NCBI GenBank assembly: GCA_015039365.1
Contig: WION01000010.1
Coordinates: 620,001-684,000 of the forward strand
Direction of reading: 5' to 3'
From: Amanita rubescens
Taxonomy: Eukaryota > Basidiomycota > Agaricomycetes > Agaricales > Amanitaceae
DNA length: 64,000 nt
The notes beneath the pieces are model-generated. The model saw nothing but the letters and a program-made list of their open reading frames with translations. It ran no database searches and was not told the DNA's origin. The position numbers were made by a program, and so were the translations under genes. Below are positions 1-62,308 of this stretch, one piece after another. Within the stretch, counting starts at the first letter, position 1. The number at the start of each line of letters is the position of its first letter.

Positions 1-3000
1 AGTCTCCCAGCATCTAAGCTGCTCACTGTCGATCGCCTGCTCGATATTATGCGAGTTGACAAGAAGAATAGCGGTTCAGACAAGAAAATCGTCATTTTGT
101 CCAAGATTGGCGGAACTTATGAGCAAAAGGCCACCATTGTTCCGGACCATCAGATTACCAAGGTACTCTCGGCTGCGGTGAAGGTTGTTTCCGGCATACC
201 CTACAACCACCCTGTCAAGATGGCCACGCCTGGATCGAAGAGCATCTCCAACCGCGCGCTCGTCCTTGCTGCGCTAGGGAAGGGAACTTGTCGGCTCAAG
301 AATCTGCTGCACTCTGATGATACCCAAGTTATGATGCAAGCCATTGAAGATTTCAAGGTATGCGTGCGTACACTGAATGCGGAAAACTCTCTGACCTTTG
401 TTAGGGCTCCAGCTTTGCCTGGGAGGACAACGGGGAAACTTTGGTCGTAAAGGGAGGCGAGGGCTCCCTTACGGTCCCGCCCAAAGGAAAAGAGATATAC
501 CTTGGGAATGCTGGTACAGCTGCGCGTTTCCTCACAACTGTTGGTGCCTTGATCAAAAGTCCACCCAATGGTAGCGTAACCCCCACCATAGTCACTGGAA
601 ACGCTCGGATGAAGCAGCGCCCTATCGGCGCTTTGGTTACCGCGCTCAAAGAGAACGGTAGCGATATTACTTACCTCGAGTCAGAGGGCTGTCTGCCGCT
701 GTCAATTGCGCCTACGGGGTTACGCGGGGGCAAGATACAACTCGCGGCTAGCGTGTCAAGCCAATATGTTTCGTCTATTATGCTATGTGCTCCGTACGCT
801 CAGGAACCAGTGTCACTCGAGCTTGTTGGCGGACAGGTTATTTCCCAACCTTACATCGACATGACCATTGCCATGATGAAAGTTTTTGGTATTCATGTCA
901 CCCGACGAGTTTGCACCACAACCAGCAACCTCCTAGACGTCTATGACATACCCCAGGGCGCCTATAGCAATCCATCTGAGTACAACATTGAATCTGACGC
1001 CAGCAGTGCTACGTATCCTCTAGCCATTGCCGCCATCACCGGTACAACATGCACCATCGCCAACATTGGCTCTGCATCTCTTCAAGGCGACGCCAAATTC
1101 GCAAAGGAAGTGCTCGAGAAGATGGGATGTACCGTTGAGCAGACAGCCGACGAGACGACTGTGACTGGTCCTCCCATAGGCCAACTCAAGGGGATTGACG
1201 TGGATATGGAGGTGATGACGGATGCCTTCTTGACCGCTACTGCCTTGGCGGCTGTAGCGACCGGAAAGACGAGAATTACGGGTATTGCGAACCAACGAGT
1301 GAAAGAGTGTAACCGTATTCAAGCTATGATGGATCAACTTGGTACGTCCAGACTGGCCTGGCCGAAACTGGAGCTAACTAGGCACTTATACAGCCAAGTT
1401 TGGCGTCTCGACGAACGAACTGGAGGATGGGCTGGAAATCTTCGGAATGCCCGTCGAGTCATTAAAGCGTGGTGCCAGCATACACTGCTATGATGATCAC
1501 CGCGTCGCAATGGCTTTCAGCGTTCTTGGCGCCATTATTGAGAACACCACCATCGAGGAGAAGCGATGCGTTGAGAAGACTTGGCCCAATTGGTGGGATG
1601 ACCTGAAAAACAAGGTGTGCACTGAGGTACCAGTTTTTGTTTCCTCAGGTTCTTACAGATTTTCATAGATTGGTCTGCAAGTCGAGGGTGTTGATCTTTC
1701 AAGTGTGTCTTCAACGGCTACGACGAGCAACATCCAGATAGATGGTCGCGAAAATCACTCTGCTTCGATATTTCTCATCGGTATGCGAGGCTCGGGAAAA
1801 ACCTTCGTCGGTGAACTCGCCGCGTCACTGCTTTATTGGACGTGTTTAGATGCGGACATGTATTTTGAGACCAAGTACAAACAAGGAGTCCGGGAATATG
1901 TCAAAGAACACGGATGGGCGGCATTCCGTGAAGCCGAAGTTGCTGTTCTCAAGGAATTAATGCGCGATAACGCATCAAAACATGTCATCAGCCTCGGTGG
2001 AGGCATTGTCGAGATCGAAGAAGCCAGGCAGATGCTCAAAGAGTGGGATGGGCCTGTCGTACATGTCGTACGAGACGTGGATGAAGTTATCAAATATCTG
2101 TCAACAGAGAGCTCTCGTCCAGCCTATGGCGAGCCTGTCATCGACGTCTACCGCCGACGTGAACCTTGGTTCGCAGAATGCTCTACCCACGAGTTTGTAA
2201 ACTGGGTTCAGCGGTCGGCATCGAACTCAGCTTTGAGGGGTGCAAGAAATGAAGTCTTCCGTTTCTTCGCGCACATTACCGGTCAGAGACCCAGCCTTGC
2301 ACCAAACATGTTCTCTGGTCGTCGAACATACTTCCTCTCGTTGACCTACCCTGATTTAACATGCGCTCTTCCTCAGATGGAGCAGTTGACAGAGGGCGCC
2401 GATGCTATTGAACTTCGCGTTGACCTTTTAAGGCCAGCAGATGCTACGGAACCTGTCGGGAAATACATACCAACCGCTGCTTATGTGGCAAGGCAAATCG
2501 CTGCTCTGCGTCGGGTTACCTCACTGCCCATCGTGTACACCGTACGCACGGTATCACAGGGCGGTGCCTTCCCGGATGCAGCAACGGATGAGGCATTCAA
2601 GTTATTGACTCTGGCACTGCGTATGGGTGTCGGATACATTGATATCGAGATTACTTTGCCGGAGCTCTACGTGAAAAGCCTCATTTCACAGAAGCGCTAC
2701 AGCCATGTCATCGCGTCTTGGCACGACTGGAGTGGAAAAATGAACTGGGATGGTCCCGTTGTAAGGGAAAAGTATGAGATCGCGCACAAGATTGGTGACA
2801 TTATCAAGATTATTGGCAAGGCCAACACGATTCAGGACAACTTCGTTCTCCACGACTTTGTTACGAAATATCTTGATAAGCCCAATGCAAAACCCATCAT
2901 TGCTATCAACATGGGTCAGGATGGACAAATGTCGCGTATCCTGAATCACACGTTCACGCCCACGACGCACCCGAGCTTACCTGCTAAAGCTGCTCCTGGC

Positions 3001-3921
3001 CAGCTCTCGTTCAAGCAGATTCAGATAGCGTTGAATTTACTTGGCATACTCCCACCCCTCAGATTCTTCCTCTTTGGCAATCCCATCCTACATTCCATGT
3101 CCCCCGTCCTGCACAACAAGATGTTTGAAATCCTTGGTTTGCCCCACAACTATGAGATCTTCCAGACCGAGTCTCTCAATGACGAACTCAAGGCTTTGAT
3201 TAATTCACCAGATTTTGGCGGCGCTTCCGTGACGATTCCGTACAAGATCGAAATCATTCCACTGCTCTCAGAGTTGACGCCAGCCGCCAAGGCCATGGGT
3301 GCCATCAACACCATCATCCCCGTGCCAACAGAATCGGGCCGTAAACTGATCGGTGACAACACTGACTGGCTCGGAATTCGTGAATCCATCGTATCCTTCC
3401 TCCCTACAGATCCAATCCAAGCGGGGCTCATCATTGGTGCAGGGGGTACCGCACGTGCAGCCATCTACGCTTTACACAACTTGGGCGCGAAGCACATATA
3501 CCTCTTCAACCGTACGAAAGCTAATGCGCTTGAACTGGCCCGGTCCATGTCCTATGCAGGGGTCACCGTTCTGGACGCTGTTTCTGAGTGGCCTGCAGGA
3601 CTACCACCGCCAAACGTCATTGTGGGAACGGTCCCTGCGCAAGCTACAACCCTCACCGAGGGAGAGCGCGGCCTTTTGTTGACCTCGAAGCTGTACGAAT
3701 ACAAAGACGGACCTGCCGTTGTCGTCGATATGGCTTACAAACCTGCTGAAACACCATTGCTAAAGTTGGCCAAGGCAACGGGTGCCAACTGGGCGATGGT
3801 GCCGGGTGTTGAAGTCCTGTTAGAGCAAGGGTTTGTTCAATTCGAATTGTGGACAGGTAGGAAGAGCCCGAGATCGTTGGCGAGTGGGCTGGTGAGGGAG
3901 ACTTATTATGCTAGTGCCTAG
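1..3921 (+). CDS. ARO1: AROM pentafunctional shikimate-pathway protein, 3' part
   Basis: The last four of the five fused enzymes that turn DAHP into EPSP in the cytosol. Exons are 1-357, 405-1341, 1394-1614 and 1669-3921; the three introns (47, 52, 54 nt) restore one frame of 1255 residues. In order: EPSP synthase (about nt 200-1600, with substrate loop [15 protein letters not shown]), shikimate kinase (P-loop GMRGSGKT near nt 1780), type I 3-dehydroquinate dehydratase (about nt 2310-3030, with Schiff-base lysine in [11 protein letters not shown]) and shikimate dehydrogenase (about 3060-3918, with NADP motif GAGGTARAA). The N-terminal dehydroquinate synthase lies outside the window; full AROM is about 1600 residues. 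No frameshift or missing catalytic motif was seen, so the gene looks functional. The exon ends are inferred from splice motifs plus conserved protein sequence. Confidence 0.97.
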
Positions 3922-18899: not shown

Positions 18900-19592
18900 T
18901 TCCCCATCACCGCTCCGAAGGCTGTAGTCAACGAGCATCTATACTCCAACCAAAGTTATACGAAAATTACAAGTTAATATACCCTAAACAAAGATCACAA
19001 GATAATTACGGGCCATAGTCAGGTGGAGCATCGTAACGGAAGTTTCTGGCTTCCGGAGAGGGTGCGCTGGGAACTTCAGCAATGGAATCTTCTCGATGCA
19101 TGATTGGGTGTGATGGTGATGCCACTGTCGAGATGCTTGGACCAGGCTTGTGAACAGGTACTAACGTTCTCGTAGGAATGGCGATGGACGGAGAGTGGGG
19201 ACTATTTGATGCAATGCTGTCGCTTGCCGCAAAGCGAGGCTGAATGTAAACACGACCCGGGGGGAGTAATGATTCCGCTTCGAAAGGCACAACGGTGGGC
19301 TCCCTTGGGCCGAAAATAGTAGCTGCTTACATGAGTCCATGTCATTCTAAGTTGAACAAACTGACTTACATCTTCCAGTGGTTCCCATTTCTGCACTTTC
19401 TGCTTTCCGCCGTCGCGATCGAGCCAGCAATATTATTATGACCGCCGTAAGAATGATGATAACGCCGCCAAGGACTCCCCCGACAATTACGCCCAGCGTG
19501 GTGGAACTCGGAGAGGTGCTCTGCGGCGAAGATTGCAATGACGGCGCAGAAGTCGGACTTGTGACGACAAAATAGTCCAGATACATCGACGC
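18900..19592. repeat. Segmental duplication, copy 2 (partner 16650-17378)
   Basis: The same-orientation partner of copy 1, covering the 3' part and 3' flank of the intact membrane-protein gene at 19006-20004. Because the gene continues intact beyond the upstream breakpoint, this is the likely source copy. Confidence 0.8.
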
Positions 19593-51314: not shown

Positions 51315-51712
51315 GCATGGGCGCCTGCCTGTATATTTATGCTCGTTATCGCGCTCAGTCGAGTATGTCGACATCTACGGGTCAGCAAAGAGGATTTGGA
51401 GCCAGATCTACACAGGATGCATCCGGTCCTGAATATCTCAGATGTCGCAATCGAAGCTTATCATCTTTCGTTGTGCGATTTCTTTCAGGACCGGCGCAGG
51501 CAAATATGACATTCATCCTGCGCGGGCGACACTGGTGCGGCTGCCACAGAAGATCGATAGGTTCGCGACAAGGAATGAGCTGCCCCTCATATTACTGGCA
51601 TGGACTGTGGGCGAAGTGGCGGCAGGGGTAACACTGGGGTTAATGGACCTCAAAGGTGCGGCGCTCGCAGCTTGGCTACTTGTCCTGACATCACATGGAC
51701 AGCATTCTTGAT
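51315..51712 (+). pseudogene. C-terminal relic of a NACHT-type NLR gene
   Basis: Plus-strand codons from 51333 read FMLVIALSRVCRHLRVSKED, then LEPDLHRMHPVLNISD and AIEAYHLSLCDFFQDRR, closely matching the C-terminal part of the NLR pseudogene at 60610-62308 (VCRRLRMNKEDLEPDLHKM, TIEAYHLSLRDFFQDR). One base later in frame (near 51490) it continues KYDIHPARATLVRLPQK and a hydrophobic C-terminus. No P-loop part exists nearby, so it is a 5'-truncated, frameshifted fragment. Confidence 0.85.
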
Positions 51713-52139
51713 TTGGATATTCGAATATTCAACCTGCAAAACGGAGAAAGCTTTCAAACGAGGAACTTGGAAGCCAAATGCGGATCCAGCTGTCACGTAT
51801 AGCTCCTTAAATTCCAGACCCATGTCCTCTCTATATCCATGTTACTGTTATTCGCAATGATGATCTGCAAGCGGACGTTTGTTGAATATTGAAAAGTGTG
51901 TTGTGTACAGTCTACAAACCTATATAACAACGTTCCGAGTCACGGAATTCAGAATAATGCAAAGAATACGACGACTCTTGGCAGGCACAGGCACCAGGCA
52001 CGACGTAGATCCTTGATGAGAGTCACGCGATAGGCATATGATCTTACCCCAATAAGAAATGTTCAACAGCATTTCATGTACTGTATTTGAAGCATTCAAA
52101 TGCAGTACCCTTTCCTCATCTTCAACGCGGCCCACTATG
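51713..52139. other. No confident gene
   Basis: About 430 nt between the NLR relic and the membrane-protein array. Nothing recognised. Confidence 0.4.
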
Positions 52140-52530
52140 GGCTCAAGTTCTCTCGTAGCAGGCCTCGCTGTCTCCTTGTCATTCTCGGTTCTAGTGACGA
52201 CTACAACGGTAATCCAGAAGAAACGCAAGCATATAGAACACGAAGCGTAGAATCATGCTCGATCCAGCTTGACTCGTAATTCGAGTAATCAAACCGACGG
52301 CGCAATGAACTAGGGATTTATTGCAGCGGATATTGAACCACCACCACCTGGATAAACCAGAGAACCGCATCATCCAGCCTGTCGGTAGAAACATGAACAT
52401 GTCTGTTCGACAATGAGATGATGTAGTTTCAACAGTAGGTTTAGCTCTCCCGAGCCATGATGCGGTTGCTCCGCTCCAAGTACCCACCATTAAGAAAGAC
52501 GCGATGCTTCCACCGTAATTTCCAACTATT
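52140..52530 (+). pseudogene. Degenerate member of the small TM/PPxY/His-rich family
   Basis: ATG 52138 opens GSSSLVAGLAVSLSFSVLVT, a membrane segment, followed by basic QKKRK. The reading then hits TAG where the neighbour at 53213-53674 has CAG (EAQDRAQ), and the PPxY exon reads IEPPPPG followed by a stop where the neighbour has VEPPPAY. The intron and 3' exon remain alignable up to about 52525 (GCTTCCACCGTAATTTCC in both). Point mutations, not indels, disabled it. Confidence 0.7.
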
Positions 52531-53212: not shown

Positions 53213-53674
53213 GCCCACCATGGTTTCGGGACCCTACCATAGCAAACATTGTTATCATCATTTCCTTCGTGCTATTTGCGGCTCTGTTGACATTCGCAGT
53301 TTTTTGGAAGACTCGCAAGCGTGCGGAAAAAGAAGCGCAGGATCGAGCACAATCCAGCTTTGCTCGTACTTCAAGTAAGCCCATCTTGTGTGGTCAAACT
53401 CTCAGCGTAATGAACTGAGGATTGATTGCAGCCGATGTTGAACCACCACCTGCGTACATCAAAGAATCTCATCATCCGACTGGTCAGTAGAACATAATGA
53501 TGCCTGTGCACAGTGAGCTAATATGGGTTGACCATAGGTATTGCTCTCCCGAGCTATGATAATCATTACACACACCATAGCCACGACTCTCATACGGGTG
53601 CTCCGCAATCCAACCACCAAACATCCGCACAACAAGTGCCCATCGTTAACCGAGTCACAATGCTTCCACCGTAA
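53213..53674 (+). CDS. Small TM protein with PPxY motif and His-rich tail (member D), 5' end unresolved
   Basis: Exons: about 53213-53374, 53432-53482 and 53538-53674, with the same phase-1/phase-1 introns as the three genes downstream. The membrane segment is IVIIISFVLFAALLTFAVFW, then basic KTRKRAEKE, then on the small middle exon EPPPAYIKESHHPTG with a PPAY motif. The last exon gives SYDNHYTHHSHDSHTG with five His in 14 residues, ending at TAA 53674. The only nearby ATG (53220) is one base out of phase with the membrane segment, so either a +1 shift is present or the true start is in an upstream exon. Function unknown. Confidence 0.65.
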
Positions 53675-54179
53675 TTTCCCTCGATATAATGTAAGTTGCT
53701 CGAATAAGATGGGATGCGTAGATAATAACCGACTGCCATTTCCGGTTTAGCTGGAAATATACTTTGGATTGGGTCCTCGGCCCTGCAGTTGTTCTATATG
53801 ACAAAGGATCAGTACTTGTATTGTATCACAATCATTACAACTTGAGATGAATGTCATCCATACTAGTAGGCCGTGCGCGTGACAGAAATAGTCCTGTCGA
53901 CGTTCAAGGTACATGATCATGCTGCGCAGACCATGGATGTATTGTAAAAGTCGCTTTTGCCTCGCGCACGTTCTCGGAAATGCTTTGTATGAATATGTAT
54001 CGAGGGTGTGGTGACGCTCAACCTCCCGATATTTCAGGCTGTCCAAGCGTTGACGACAGGATGAGTAAGCAGTCACTCGTCACTACTAGTCACCAGTCAC
54101 TCCAGATTGGCATGTCAACAGCGGTAAGTATAGTCATGCCTCTATCACAAAGTATCCCACTCTCCGAGCGCTATTCACA

Positions 54180-54634
54180 ATGAACAACCAGTCAAATCCT
54201 CCACAATTCTGGATCATAGGCTTTGTAATAGCCTCTATCGCCATCATACTTATCGTAAGGTTCGCCCGAGCCAAACGGCGGCGGCAATTGGTGGCCGTCA
54301 CCTTATCCAGGACTCCACGTCGGGTTGAATCTGGATTCAATCGAGACCGTAAGTGAACGTCATTCGTTCGTCAAAGTATGGTGCACTTGTACTAATGACA
54401 CTATGTTGCAGTGATCATTGATCAACCGCCACCGCCTGCGTATACACGGTCACCTCCACCTCCGATGTACCCAGCAGGTCAGTTTACAGCATCAAAGAGT
54501 TTCCAATGTGTGGAATTACCGCTACCTATTTTCCTGCAGAAACTCATACCCACACTCACCTCCATCATTACCACCACACAGACACGACTAATACCCCCCT
54601 TATGACCACCAATCATGCTACTTCGAATCTCTAA
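54180..54634 (+). CDS. Small TM protein with PPxY motif and His-rich tail (member A)
   Basis: Exons 54180-54348, 54412-54477 and 54540-54634 give 109 residues. Residues 1-9 are short and polar; the membrane segment is FWIIGFVIASIAIILIV followed by RFARAKRRR, which by the positive-inside rule puts the C-terminus in the cytosol. Exon 2 enters and leaves in phase 1 and encodes LIIDQPPPPAYTRSPPPPMY with a PPAY motif. Exon 3 encodes ETHTHTHLHHYHH, seven His in 13 residues, then a Thr/Asn-rich end. PPxY motifs recruit WW-domain proteins (Rsp5/Nedd4 class); His clusters can bind Zn, Ni or Cu. Both roles are inference. No named family is known to me. If intron 2 is retained, a different 40-residue tail is read (stop near 54603). 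Confidence 0.75.
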
Positions 54635-55326
54635 GGTTCCTTCATGCTATGCTTGATAATTTATTGCAAAACTCCTCTATACGCCTTTTCTAGAATACGA
54701 TTCACAGCGTAAAAGATCGCATTCTAGAGAGGCAAGCTCATCTCTTACAATACCTATTCGTTGCATCATTGCTGTTATTTTTCCGGACAGGTCGCATTAT
54801 GTTATACGTGTTTTCAAGGAAGAAATGGAAAATGATCTGTATATTACTATGTTTTCCGATACATGCAAACAGACAATAACCAACCGAGATGGAATGTCGT
54901 CACTTATTAGCCTCCGCACGCGGCGCCAAAAATAGCCGTGTCACGGTCGACGTCCAAGGTACCACAGAACATGATCATACTGTGCAGGCCATGGATGTAT
55001 TGTAAAAGTCGCTTTTGCCTCGTGAACCTCTTTTGACCTCGCTTAGCGTTGCCGAGGGTCATCAGGCCACTCTATATATTTGGCAAGCATGTCACCCAGC
55101 CACCTCGGTCCTCAAATGTTGTGCACCCATAACGCCAGGGGTCCCCAACCGTTGACGACAAGATCAGTGTATCTAGGACTGGGAATGATGCACGGCATAG
55201 TCACTCGGCACTGAAGTATTGACATTCAACAGCTTTTTTCGCAATATTTTAGCTTGACTGTAGACTGTAGTCACGCCTCTTCAGCAGAAAGTATCCCCAG
55301 TGCCCACTCCCCGAGCGTTATTCACA

Positions 55327-55765
55327 ATGGACAACGTTAACCAGTCATCAACATCGAATCCACCACAAAACCATCAGTCACTATTCTGGGTAGCCCTTGT
55401 CGTCATCTTTGTCTTCATCCCAATTTTCTTCCGGATCATGGGAGCCAAACGGCGGCGGCAATTTGTGGCCGTCACCTTTTCTAGGAGTCCACGTCAAGTT
55501 GAATCTGGACTCAATCGAGACTGTGAGTGAACGTCATTCATTCGTTGCACTTGTATTAATGACATTATGTTGCAGTGCCGCCTGCGTATACACAGTCACC
55601 TCCACCTCCAACTTTAGTGTACCCAGCAGGTCAGTATATAGCCCCGAAGAGCATTCAATGTGTGGGCTTACCACTACCCATTTTCCTGCAGAAACCCATA
55701 CTCACGTCCATCATCACTGCCACACCGGCACGACTAGTCATTTTATGACCGCTTCGCATCACTAA
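55327..55765 (+). CDS. Small TM protein with PPxY motif and His-rich tail (member B)
   Basis: Exons 55327-55522, 55576-55629 and 55692-55765 give 107 residues. ATG 55327 aligns with the starts of members A and C. The membrane segment is LFWVALVVIFVFIPIFFRIM followed by GAKRRR; then FVAVTFSRSPRQVESGLNRD, as in A. Exon 2 is shorter (54 nt, again phase 1/1) and keeps LPPAYTQSPPPP. Exon 3 gives ETHTHVHHHCHTG with six His and a Cys, ending ASHH. The three-exon layout, intron phases and His tail are conserved although sequence around them has diverged, which argues that all are used. Confidence 0.75.
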
Positions 55766-56619
55766 GGTTTCTTCATGTCACGCTTGCGAAAGCACCCATA
55801 CGCCTTTCCTAGAATACGATTTGCCACAGCGCATAATATCGAATTCTAGAGGTGTAAGCTCAGCTATTACGATACCCATTCGTTGCATCATTGCAGTCAT
55901 TGTAGCATATTTATTCCGACAGGTCGCATTATGTTATACGTGTTTTCAAGGAAGGTATATTACGTTTTCCGATACATATGTACGTCAAGGTGGAACAGAC
56001 AATTGAAGTACTGACAGTGACAGCCGTAGCTGGAAATATGCCTCCTGCAATTGTACTTTATGACAGAGGATCAAATACTTGTCTAGCTCTTGTACCACGA
56101 TCATTGCAACTTGATATAAATATCGTCCAAGGTACCGCAGAGGATGATTATGCTGCACACAGGCCATGGATACATTGTATAAAAAGTCCCTTTTGCTTCG
56201 CGAATCTAACGCACGTTCTCAGAAATGCTTTGTATGGATATGCATTTAGCAGCCAGGCACAAACCCTGCTGTGAGAATGCCGTCGGTAACTCGTTGAAAT
56301 GATTCGGCAGACCGCACCGCCTTTTGGCGGCATGTCACCACGCTACCTCAAATGTTGTGCACCCGTGTCGCCCCGTGACGCCAGGCTGTCCAAGCGCTGA
56401 CGACGAGATGAGTAAGGCTGCTTTGAAGCGGTGCACGGCACTACGAATCCTGGCAGTAAGCACTAAGGCAGGCACGTGAAACCGTAGCCTTGGGAAACAC
56501 TGGTCACTCCGCCGCATTGACGTCGACATGTTGACATATTCAACAGCCTTTTTTAGCAAAGTACTTTAGCTTAATTGGCAGTAAGCACGACGTACTATCC
56601 CCCCGCGCTAACTTTCACA

Positions 56620-57089
56620 ATGGATCCCAACTACCAGCCACCAAGCCCTCCACAATTCTGGATCATTGGCGTCGTTGTCGTCTCTATCCTTGGCGGCATC
56701 ACACTTTTCTTAGCGTTCGTCCGAGCCAGCCGGCGGCGGCAATTAGTGGCCGTCACTTTATCTGGGACTCCACGTCGGGTTGAATCTGGATTCAATCGAA
56801 ATCGTAAGTGAACGTCATTCGTTCGTCGTCTGCGGTTGTACTGAATAACACTCACTATGTTGCAGTGATTATCGATCAACCACCACCACCACCTGCATAT
56901 ACACGGTCACCTCCACCTCCAGTGTACCCAGCAGGTCAGTATAACAGTACTGAAGAGTTTTTTTTTTCAACGTGTGGACTTACCCACTTACCAACAGAAA
57001 CTCATACGCATACTCACCTCCATCACCACGCGAGCACAACTAATACTCTTCATATGACCAACACCAATTTCACCCCTTCAAATTTCTAA
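56620..57089 (+). CDS. Small TM protein with PPxY motif and His-rich tail (member C)
   Basis: Exons 56620-56803, 56866-56934 and 56998-57089 give 114 residues. The N-terminus is MDPNYQPPSPPQ; the membrane segment FWIIGVVVVSILGGITLFLA is followed by FVRASRRR. Exon 2 (69 nt, phase 1/1) encodes LIIDQPPPPPAYTRSPPPPV, with PPAY. Exon 3 gives ETHTHTHLHHHAST, six His, then Thr/Asn-rich sequence. Here intron 2 is 63 nt, without stop codons, because a T-run is one base longer than in A and B, so unspliced RNA would also reach the His tail in frame. Closest to member A. Confidence 0.75.
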
Positions 57090-57300: not shown

Positions 57301-59028
57301 ACTATAGATAGCTCTTTCCACAGAAACTGAGTTATGTAACGTTTATGCGCCCACTGTCCTTGGGAGTGAATGAAACCATCAAACAATGTGTTTTGAGAAT
57401 TCGTGGGTGTACAACCCCACGTGTATGCCTGATGGGTATACATTTGCTTTCCCCACATTTCCCAAGCGGATAACAAATTATCTCTTTGAGAGATAGGGAG
57501 CTTTTGAACGACGTGAAGAGTAGTCCTTCACAACCTGGTCTAGACTGACTGCGCCACTGTAGGCGACGGAACCGGGGTGTGTCAATACCGAAATCGTTGA
57601 ATACATCCATGCCGCCCCTGGAAAAAAAATCTGATCGTCATAAGACCCTGATAGGCAACTAAAGTCGAACCGCAGGTAGGTCAGGCGCACAGGAGCCGCA
57701 GTGGTCACCGTCACCGGCGTGTCAGCGCCCTCTCTTTTTTTCGTTATGAAACTGCCGGATGATCTAGGAGGCGCGGGAAACGACGTTTGGATTGTTGATA
57801 AAACGTTAGCGTTTTATGATCAGTCGTAGCCCTTGCACGTAAAGCTTCTTCGAATGACGCGATACGTACAGTGCCGTCCGAGGCCACCGTGAGCAAGGTC
57901 ATCGTAAGAGCCGATGGTGACGGTGACGTGAGCAATGAGCGTTTTCCAAGTGGTAGACCACAGGCAGCAGTAGCGCCAACACGTGCATTGTTACCAGAGA
58001 AGGCTAGGCTAGGCCGCTGGCGATCCGGAGCACGACCGATAACCACCCCGAAAAGAAATCAAGGTGGGGCTTTCATAGAGGTCAAGCAAGAAAATTTGAG
58101 TTAACGTTGTAAATGCGAGCGTCAATCAGGCCAATTTTATCACAATTAACCATTTCATAGATGCCATGAGGCGAGGCCGATCACTTCGTTCATTGAAGCC
58201 ACCACAGCCCTTGGCCCACTGTAGAAGAACTGGATAAGGATGAAGCAAAAACGGGAAGATAGGCAATGACGACAACCGGAGGGCTAGAGTAGCGTTCGCT
58301 GGCTTTCTTCGGTCTTTTTTGTGCCTACGGACAAGGACGGAGAGGAGAAATTACAAGAAGCAGTAGTATCTTAGATACCTGGAGCTTCTCCGTGATGGTC
58401 GATGCTCAAGGTGAAGAACCTCTGATATCAAAAGGTTAAAGGGACGGTCATGAGCAGAGAAGGAACCGGATCGTCGCGTGGACGACCCTGTGGAGACTAG
58501 ACCAAAAGATGACATACCCCCATGCGTACAGTTGCTTGTTAACGTATAGATCTGGCACGAGGACACAGGCTCTCGTCCAAAGTCCGCCGTGACACAGCGC
58601 TGGCATAAAATTTAACGAGTAGCTCCGCCTCGAGGGCGATATGGAGAGCATCATAGCTAGTAGTAGAGAAAGATCTGCGTGATATTTAAGAGGGTTAGCA
58701 ATTGTGTGTGTCCTAATAGAATGCAAAGTAGACAACAAAGGAAGTCTTAATTAGATTAGACAAACGGATAGACGGATATGGCAGTGCTCCGGTCAGGGTT
58801 GTACACGGACGCTGTGTAGAACGGTTAGCAAGTCGGGGAGTCAAGTCAGGGCTTTCTTGATTTATCGAATCGGTTGTTACTGTTATAAGGCTAGTGGATG
58901 GAGAGAGGGGCTTGTCTCCAAGGCATTTTACTACTTAGCATTACGTTTCGATATTACGTTCCGCTTCCCGGTGGGTACAAAAGTACTCTTCCATTCTTCT
59001 TCAACTCTTCCTCGTCAATTCATCCCAA
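57301..59028. other. No confident gene
   Basis: About 1.7 kb. Minus-strand open frames at 57714-57478 (RLTYLRFDFSCLSGSYDDQI) and 58046-57744 (TVASDGTVRIASFEEALRA) look partly protein-like and may belong to one spliced gene, but I could not build it or name it. The sequence 58300-58700 holds nothing recognisable. The end should contain the F-box gene promoter. Confidence 0.35.
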
Positions 59029-60609: not shown

Positions 60610-62308
60610 TCAAATAATAACAGAAGATGGAGGTGAATTAATGAACCGGGCCATCACATAGATTATTCCCAGTGTCAACCCGAATGCCAACACGACTGCC
60701 ACTAGTAGGATAGGCCCATGATGCAACCTACGAACGTTCTGCGGCAGTCGTATTAGTGTCACCCGCAAAGGATGAATGTAATATTCCCTCGAACGTTTCC
60801 TGTCCTGAAAGAAATCGCGTAACGAAAGATGATAGGCCTCAATTGTGGTATCCGAAATATTCAAGATAGAGTGCATCTTATGTAGATCCGGCTCCAAATC
60901 CTCTTTGTTCATCCGTAGGCGCCGACAGACAAACGCGATATCAACTCGACCAAATGCGATAACGAGCACAAATACATCTCTCAACAGCCGTATGTTTGGC
61001 TGTTGCGAAAGGATTTGGATGTAAAGTTGGTCTAGTGGAGTATACGGTGAATTTGAACTGGCACGACGGCGCTTTAGAATGATATCAAGCTGCTTCCGGG
61101 GATTGCGATTGTGATTGTCGACAAACTTGATGATAGTCGATGGATATATAAATTGACCAGACGCTTCTGAGACCAGGCGGCCCATGATATCTGCCTCAGG
61201 CAAGGGATACAAGATTCTACGTTCCGTGAAAATGCGGGAGAGTTCAGTCTTTTAGGTATCTCCGAATGTCATCATTCGGTTTAAACGTTTCGTCTAATAT
61301 GACGAAACATGTGATACGTTTCATGATGTCCATGTTGAACGTTTCCTGAATGTGAGGTTCGGGTCTGCTGCAGATAAGGAAACGCAGAGGGATCTTCCGA
61401 GATTCCAATTCTTTCCGATGAGTGTTAGGAACGTTTTTTGGTCTTGTTCAGAGTCGCATTCGTCCAAGGCGTCAATAACTGACGAGGCCCTTCTCTGGAC
61501 GTAGGCCTGGGCTCATTGCGGAGGAGCAACTCGAAGATTTTCATGAAGAGTCGATTGAATTGTACAATGATGGATTTGGAATGGATTGAACGCTCTCCCT
61601 TTAGCGTAGATTCGAAGTATGGACGTGTTTTGGGAACGGATGTGGCTAAGTTGCCATGCGAGCGTTAGAAACAGTCGATTCCAAAACACCGCGGTCCGAT
61701 GTGCCCCTCTGAAAAAAGAAAGATGCTGCTAAATGTGTGTCCTGGCAGTGCTCGGCGATGGTTTGAGCAATGGCAGATTTTCCAGCTCCAGCAGGGCCGC
61801 TCAGCCAGAAGATACGCTGGGGTGGATCTGGGTCGTTGATCCAATCTGTAATTGTCTTCAAAACCCGTACCCGGGTTCCGGGATGGCACCGGGGTGGAGG
61901 AAAGCGAGCCCTTGAATCATAGGAAGCATCCTCATGAGATGTACTTTCGAAGTTTATCAAGTTCTAGCACATTTCTCAGGACGATAGAGAATGCGGTATA
62001 ACGCCATTACCTGTCTTTTCTGTATGTTGATGAAAACCCCCAGCGGAATATCATAAAAGCTGAGAATCGATGGAATTCGAATATAGTGGGCAGTTGGCGA
62101 AGACGCATTCTGTGGGCTGTCCAGGTTGTGGTGGAATTGGGATGATCACCTCCGAGGATTGCGCTTCAGGGCGGGAGGGGTCAGCCTGAGGATCCATGCA
62201 CTTGTAGAAGGTGTCACAGCTATGCAGCCGTGCCTTTAACAAATCGTGATAGGGTTCATTATATAAAAGCAAGTCACGTTGGCGACTTGAACAGCCTGCC
62301 AGTGCCAC
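60610..62308 (-). pseudogene. NACHT-type NLR, decayed, with C-terminal membrane segment
   Basis: The minus strand reads, in order: a degenerate N-terminus (from about 62308), SYDSRARFPPPRCHPGTRVR, Walker A GPAGAGKSAIAQTIAE (near 61780), AASFFFQRGTSDRGVLES, LFLTLAWQLSHI, FNRLFMKIFELLLRNEP, Walker B-like VIDALDECDSEQDQ, IPLRFLICSRPEPHIQETF, then ELSRIFTERRILYPLPEAD to a hydrophobic C-terminus (GPILLVAVVLAFGLTLGIIY). The pieces lie in successive frames: single extra bases occur near 61674, 61637, 61508, 61480, 61246 and a pair at 61415-61416. The last 200 residues (61212-60610) are one open frame. Such NLRs act in fungal self/non-self recognition and cell death; this copy cannot be translated as it stands. 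Confidence 0.8.

Follow-up and report, generated by a model that had tools for sequence, protein, structure and literature searches.

Rcr1 and Rcr2 are short single-pass membrane proteins of fungi with the PY motifs PPSY and VPEY in their cytosolic tail, the second of which binds the ubiquitin ligase Rsp5 (PMC5578492; this and the other two papers cited here are used from excerpts). The same source likens them to Commissureless and PRRG4, short transmembrane (TM) proteins that carry PPxY and LPxY motifs and interact with Nedd4, and reports that Commissureless regulates the membrane receptor Robo. The membrane adaptors also comprise Bsd2, Tre1/2, Ear1, Ssh4 and possibly Rcr1/2, and the metal transporter Smf1 is a target of Bsd2 and of Tre1/2 (PMC2810449). 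Here we describe a small tandem family of comparable plan in Amanita rubescens (assembly GCA_015039365.1). It consists of three genes, A, B and C, an older relative, D, and a degraded copy, E, all located in a stretch of 64,000 nucleotides (contig WION01000010.1, positions 620,001 to 684,000 of the forward strand), hereafter the window, in which positions are numbered from its first letter. The best reading of these genes, to which we give an even chance, is that they form a fast-evolving tandem family of RCR-like single-pass membrane anchors or adaptors for an Rsp5-type ligase.

Gene models and protein anatomy

Each of the genes A (54180-54634), B (55327-55765) and C (56620-57089) consists of three exons on the + strand. 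The two introns between them are of the GT-AG type, measure 53-63 bases and are in phase 1 throughout; the spliced products have 109, 107 and 114 residues, respectively. The common plan comprises one TM segment, a basic RRR stop, a PPAY motif and a histidine-rich last exon with the tails ETHTHTHLHHYHH in A, ETHTHVHHHCHTG in B and ETHTHTHLHHHAS in C. A previous sequence-only reading of this stretch had proposed precisely this three-exon plan and these protein segments, and both are confirmed here; in the case of B, the nr protein P0002 (F5887DRAFT_915819, Amanita rubescens) is the same as the spliced model over all 107 residues. A second public protein, P0001 (F5887DRAFT_1173076), corresponds to copy C over its first 84 residues, that is, exons 1 and 2; the last 93 of its remaining 102 residues are encoded at 57823-58101, while the nine preceding ones could not be placed by the script. 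No public protein was found for A or D among the matches of the protein searches, which admitted a limited length range. Protein and DNA searches of the genome (75.7 Mb in 786 contigs) with A and D gave matches in the cluster only (6, 4 and 3 matches), but they missed the degraded copy E, so further decayed copies elsewhere could escape them too. A coding pattern for PPAYTxSPPP has three occurrences in the genome, one in each of A, B and C, and a control pattern was not found at all. Ahead of A, B and C a sequence module is repeated (Table 1), which is possibly a shared promoter element.

The PY motifs follow the basic stop, with a distance of about 29-37 residues from the TM segment to the first PPxY. 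The sequence-only reading had named the PPAY alone. This is right for B, whereas a second PPxY is present in A (PPAY and PPMY), in C (PPAY and PPVY) and in the outside relative P0003 (PPAY and PPVY), and D has an additional LPSY besides its PPAY. Lysine and arginine are absent ahead of the TM segment, and four to six of them are found within the 15 residues after it. According to the positive-inside rule, the basic flank of a TM segment marks its cytosolic side; the N-terminus would therefore be outside or lumenal and the PY tail in the cytosol. Lysines are scarce (one in A, one in B, none in the whole 114 residues of C, two in the 114 residues used of P0003, and four in D). The AlphaFold model of B contains a single helix (residues 16-39) and no other helix or strand, at a low confidence (mean predicted local distance difference test score, pLDDT, of 60.6) and from an alignment of two sequences. 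The tail of P0003 has 10 histidines in 16 residues.

Copy D had been presented as an older relative that shares the plan of the other three. This agrees with its exon order, its PPAY, its histidine-rich end and its introns, both in phase 1 as counted from the TM frame and the exon lengths of 145 and 51. The part that does not agree is its beginning, since the ATG at 53220 does not share the frame of the TM exon, and two stops separate that exon from the in-frame ATG further up (53176). The identity of D with A-C is about 24-31% in pairwise alignments. Its own relative P0004, 90-93% identical to D over the shared part, has a start codon in frame, and for this reason D is probably a broken gene in this strain, or else the assembly is in error there. 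Copy E is a degraded relative of D, matched by tblastn of D with E=5e-6 over 52155-52376, with stops in frame, and weakly at 52438-52515 (E=0.74). The direct repeats D7, D10, D11 and D12 are common to copies E and D.

Constraint, relatives and expression

The coding nature of the exons is seen in the gaps of three-way nucleotide alignments of A, B and C. All 14 gap runs within exons are divisible by three (6 in exon 1, 4 in exon 2 and 4 in exon 3), and outside exons 25 of 67 are so (introns and flanks; one of six in introns alone), it being noted that the poorly aligned 100 bases upstream give 7 of 9 by themselves and that shared gaps limit the independence of the runs. Exon identity was dropped as coding evidence: intron 1 is 83-92% alike between copies, versus 73-82% for exon 1.

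Substitutions were compared with a neutral simulation based on the transitions and transversions observed; there were 21 tests, which overlap, with 4000 runs each. For the segment comprising the PY and histidine parts, 9 synonymous changes and 1 nonsynonymous change separate A and C (3.3 synonymous expected, P=0.0005), and B and C differ by 5 and 2, respectively, a weak purifying signal (P=0.045). The histidine tail by itself shows 3 synonymous changes and no nonsynonymous ones between A and C (P=0.013). The rest of the protein is near neutral, with synonymous to nonsynonymous counts of 18:32 for A-C (P=0.16), 17:46 for A-B (P=0.61) and 14:58 for B-C (P=0.91). By counting, the ratio of nonsynonymous to synonymous rates (dN/dS) is 0.45 (A-B), 0.06 (A-C) and 0.15 (B-C) in the PY exon and 0.38, 0 and 0.08 in the histidine tail, all of them rough values from 9-22 codons per segment, with borders that follow A and tail gaps placed by the aligner. 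Selection is thus visible on the PY and histidine segments, mainly through the comparison of A with C. In the TM segment the letters drift and the hydrophobicity stays, with a 19-residue mean hydropathy of 2.3-3.0 in A, B, C, P0003 and D.

Relatives were sought in 5.8 billion proteins by a method that requires shared five-residue words, by which distant kin would be missed. Copy C as query gave one match of 184 candidates, an alignment of A-D gave five matches at E up to 10 among 7988 candidates scored, and D alone gave one match of seven candidates. P0005 (E=4.2) was taken for a coincidental match of histidine and proline and discarded. The credible proteins are four, namely the window's own B and C (P0002 and P0001) plus P0003 and P0004. 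P0003 is a protein of 144 residues from a 902-bp JGI contig; its identity to B, as the aligner measures it, is 70%, and it spans the sequence of exons 1, 2 and 3 without intron residues. The usual gene caller for metagenomes is of the prokaryote type and would need intron-free DNA for such a reading; hence, judging from the protein, this contig is probably a spliced transcript (complementary DNA, cDNA), an intron-free retrocopy being the alternative. A, B and C are real genes and, taking this relative and the constraint together, they are probably expressed.

These data also bear on the idea that the cluster is a set of non-functional or marginal young genes, the product of a local duplication that is decaying in one lineage. 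The broken look of D (start) and E (stops), the near-neutral TM region and the finding of just two relatives besides the window's own proteins agree with it. Nonetheless, the gaps of the exons keep the frame without exception, the comparison of A with C shows purifying selection on the PY and histidine segment, and the intron-free P0003 suggests a spliced transcript, so that we regard this explanation as rather improbable.

Comparison with RCR and other membrane adaptors

The order that A-D share with RCR proteins is a TM helix, basic residues and PY motifs in the tail, an order that we take as the defining feature of RCR from the available text of PMC5578492 and from the profile match, and not from a solved member. 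In Pfam, the RCR cut-off (PF12273, 27.8 bits) is reached by none of the copies, with 21.6 bits for D, 12.6 for A and 11.1 for B. The match of D (E=3.7e-4) extends over residues 8-93, from the TM segment to past LPSY, and is the best of its eight listed matches; it falls to 18.0 bits when the last exon is removed. After shuffling the TM segment of D the match was kept in five of five cases (E 2e-5 to 1.4e-3, three of them above natural D), while after shuffling its tail it was kept in one of five (E 0.011). The match of D therefore rests on the tail following any hydrophobic segment. No RCR match was obtained for P0003 or P0004 in the Pfam search. By analogy, the family may work like RCR, membership of RCR itself lying beyond what the profile scores give.

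Yeast Rcr1 and Rcr2 are about twice as long as A-C. Besides, a histidine-rich tail is not described for RCR in the available text of PMC5578492, nor for Commissureless and PRRG4, which are animal families. With the Commissureless profile (PF15957), none of the four copies A-D gave a match at E up to 10; it matched only two TM-shuffled controls of D (E 0.03-0.05). Bsd2, Ndfip and Tre1-2 resemble the present family in being membrane PY adaptors of Rsp5/Nedd4 (PMC2810449, as excerpted), and none of these families appeared among the Pfam matches of A-D. Bsd2 and Ndfip differ in having several TM segments and are not known to carry a histidine tail. The combination of TM segment, PY motif and histidine tail was not met in searches of the open-licence literature, and likewise no histidine-rich PY adaptor. 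The statement of the sequence-only reading that no described family has this combination has to be corrected in this sense: short single-pass PY proteins are known (Rcr1/Rcr2, Commissureless and PRRG4; PMC5578492, in its excerpted part) and D is near RCR. The plan has precedents, and only the histidine-rich tail is unusual.

Several observations weigh against the reading of an RCR-like adaptor family. The public model P0001 of C omits the histidine exon and takes sequence from about 0.9 kb downstream; this gene model looks like a chimera. B has PPAY alone, without a second PY. Between A and B, the PY and histidine segment shows 4 synonymous and 6 nonsynonymous changes (P=0.41), that is, no purifying signal, and the dN/dS of the whole protein is 0.86 for A-B and 1.05 for B-C (0.37 for A-C). 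The earlier claim that the histidine tails are kept while their surroundings drift consequently stands for A-C and B-C and finds no signal in A-B; in the same way, a dN/dS near 1 for the PPAY and histidine segments, which the sequence-only reading had named as contrary to it, is not what A-C and B-C give. Only two relatives are found outside this genome (P0003 and P0004), both on short JGI contigs. With respect to RCR, C has no match and those of A and B have only E 0.24 and E 0.68, and one tail shuffle of D matched DUF6479 (E 1.8e-5, 25.6 versus a cut-off of 25.4 bits); given that a shuffled control can exceed a cut-off, little can be concluded on kinship from weak profile matches of proteins of this type. 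A separate warning comes from Rcr1, whose activity in chitin deposition is reported not to require Rsp5 (PMC5578492, available part), so the PY motif need not explain everything.

Ligase docking and the histidine-rich tail

Ligase genes of the expected build are present in the genome. HECT and WW searches gave three loci (Table 1), in each of which HECT hits are preceded by three WW hits; these loci may include alleles or broken genes, some HECT pieces spanning stops or introns. Three WW domains followed by HECT is the build of Rsp5. Docking of Rsp5 by the PY motifs is likely. In the proposed mechanism, the TM segment would supply the membrane tethering, one or two cytosolic PPxY motifs would dock a WW-HECT ligase of the Rsp5/Nedd4 type, as in Rcr1/Rcr2 and Commissureless, and the proteins would in this way contribute to the tagging of membrane partners that are to be sorted or degraded. 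We give an even chance to the role of an adaptor. As a substrate, the protein would use Rsp5 docking to control its own turnover, and its function would lie in the histidine tail, acting as a metal buffer or chaperone tethered to the membrane. The purified histidine tail between A and C and the 10 histidines of P0003 are in line with this; the lysine content (none in C, one each in A and B) is poor for ubiquitination of its own tail, and the presence of multiple PY motifs has been described in adaptors (PMC5892558, in the excerpt used), which leaves the substrate explanation unlikely.

An efficient activation of Nedd4 needs membrane tethering or polymerisation of the PY motif, in other words a dense local array (PMC5892558, same excerpt). 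On this basis, it may be conjectured that the histidine tail serves as an input, by binding metal or by protonation, through which the tails are clustered, metal-bridged clustering of PY tails being a simple switch for ligase activation. A metal or pH input through the tail, as the sequence-only reading had inferred, is a tentative proposal. In its complete form, that of lineage-restricted, metal- or pH-gated adaptors in which bridging of the histidine tails clusters twin-PY tails and turns Rsp5 towards a transporter while the lysine-poor tail spares the adaptor, the proposal is unlikely. Equally tentative is the opposite view of an RCR-like Rsp5 adaptor whose histidine tail has no metal role and is a soluble stretch of low complexity, varying in units of six bases (TH). 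The tail lengths do differ among the copies in 6-base gaps, the remaining C-terminus drifts, and no metal-regulatory motif common to the copies was found with the one motif scanned. Against it, the histidine codons stay histidine through synonymous changes between A and C, no tandem repeat was called in the last exons at a score of 30 or more, and D, in spite of its low identity to A-C, keeps a histidine-rich end in the same place. Slippage as the sole source of the tails was also discarded, no tandem repeat being called there, though the six-base length steps exist; a triplet repeat was called at 56879-56893, in the proline run of exon 2 of C.

The motif scanned, a candidate regulatory site, was a zinc-response-like one of the yeast type. 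It has 5 sites in the window versus 1.53 expected (5 was reached by 2 of 100 shuffles), including one between D and A (53900-53910) and one about 0.5 kb above E, and none before B or C in the window scan. It was dropped as a regulator of the cluster, there being nothing specific in it and nothing common to the copies.

Table 1. Positions of the family members, their upstream modules and the candidate ligase loci (window numbering, except for the ligase loci, given by contig)
Feature	Position	Strand	Content or remark
Copy E	about 52137-52518	+	decayed relative of D, with a TM-like exon, a PPPPG part containing stops and an MLPP end
Copy D	53220..53674	+	older relative; exons 53230-53374 (TM frame), 53432-53482 (exon 2, PPPAY) and 53538-53674 (exon 3, LPSY and His-rich)
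Upstream module of A	53911..53969	+	repeat families D9, D14, D18
Copy A exon 1	54180..54348	+	short N-terminus, TM, AKRRRQ stop
Copy A exon 2	54412..54477	+	PPPPAY and PPPPMY
Copy A exon 3	54540..54634	+	tail ETHTHTHLHHYHH; alignment, substitution test
Upstream module of B	54969-55027		repeat of the module of A, A-B 92% over 59 bases
Copy B exon 1	55327..55522	+	identical to nr protein P0002
Copy B exon 2	55576..55629	+	PPAY; without second PY (PPPPTLVY)
Copy B exon 3	55692..55765	+	tail ETHTHVHHHCHTG
Upstream module pieces of C	56124-56155 and 56210-56245		84-92% alike
Copy C exon 1	56620..56803	+	same in nr protein P0001
Copy C exon 2	56866..56934	+	PPPPPAY and PPPPVY
Copy C exon 3	56998..57089	+	tail ETHTHTHLHHHAS; unused in public model P0001
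WW+HECT locus	C1:1604099-1605945
WW+HECT locus	C237:38603-40401
WW+HECT locus	C439:689836-691636

Other features were noticed in the window. Downstream of the cluster there are a gene piece of a STAND/NACHT-type NTPase (61646-61960, - strand; NPHP3_N, E=1.3e-11) and an open reading frame (ORF) at 60610-61212 (- strand) that has no Pfam match and ends, by eye, in a TM-like segment. On the other side of the cluster, at about 51500-51720 (+ strand), there may be a related gene remnant, because this sequence resembles by eye the C-terminal end of that ORF (YDIHPARATLVRLPQ versus YYIHPLRVTLIRLPQ). Further away, pieces of an AROM gene (pentafunctional, shikimate pathway) are found at 441-3921 (+ strand), namely 5-enolpyruvylshikimate-3-phosphate (EPSP) synthase, shikimate kinase, dehydroquinase and shikimate dehydrogenase. 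Another single-TM segment with an RRR stop lies at 19371-19511 (- strand); it is a weak tblastn match of C (E=0.022), without PY or histidine tail in the matched part.

Membrane PY adaptors help to decide which transporters the Rsp5/Nedd4 ligases remove, and a route by which a metal signal enters this decision would be of wide interest. If the histidine tail were a sensor, one small protein would couple the metal level to the clustering of the ligase at the membrane, and the three natural copies, with twin PY, single PY and varied histidine counts, could serve directly as a test series. Should the metal part fall away, the cluster still represents a candidate adaptor family, young and expanding in tandem, of an ectomycorrhizal mushroom, and its putative ligase-docking and histidine segments are the parts visibly under selection.

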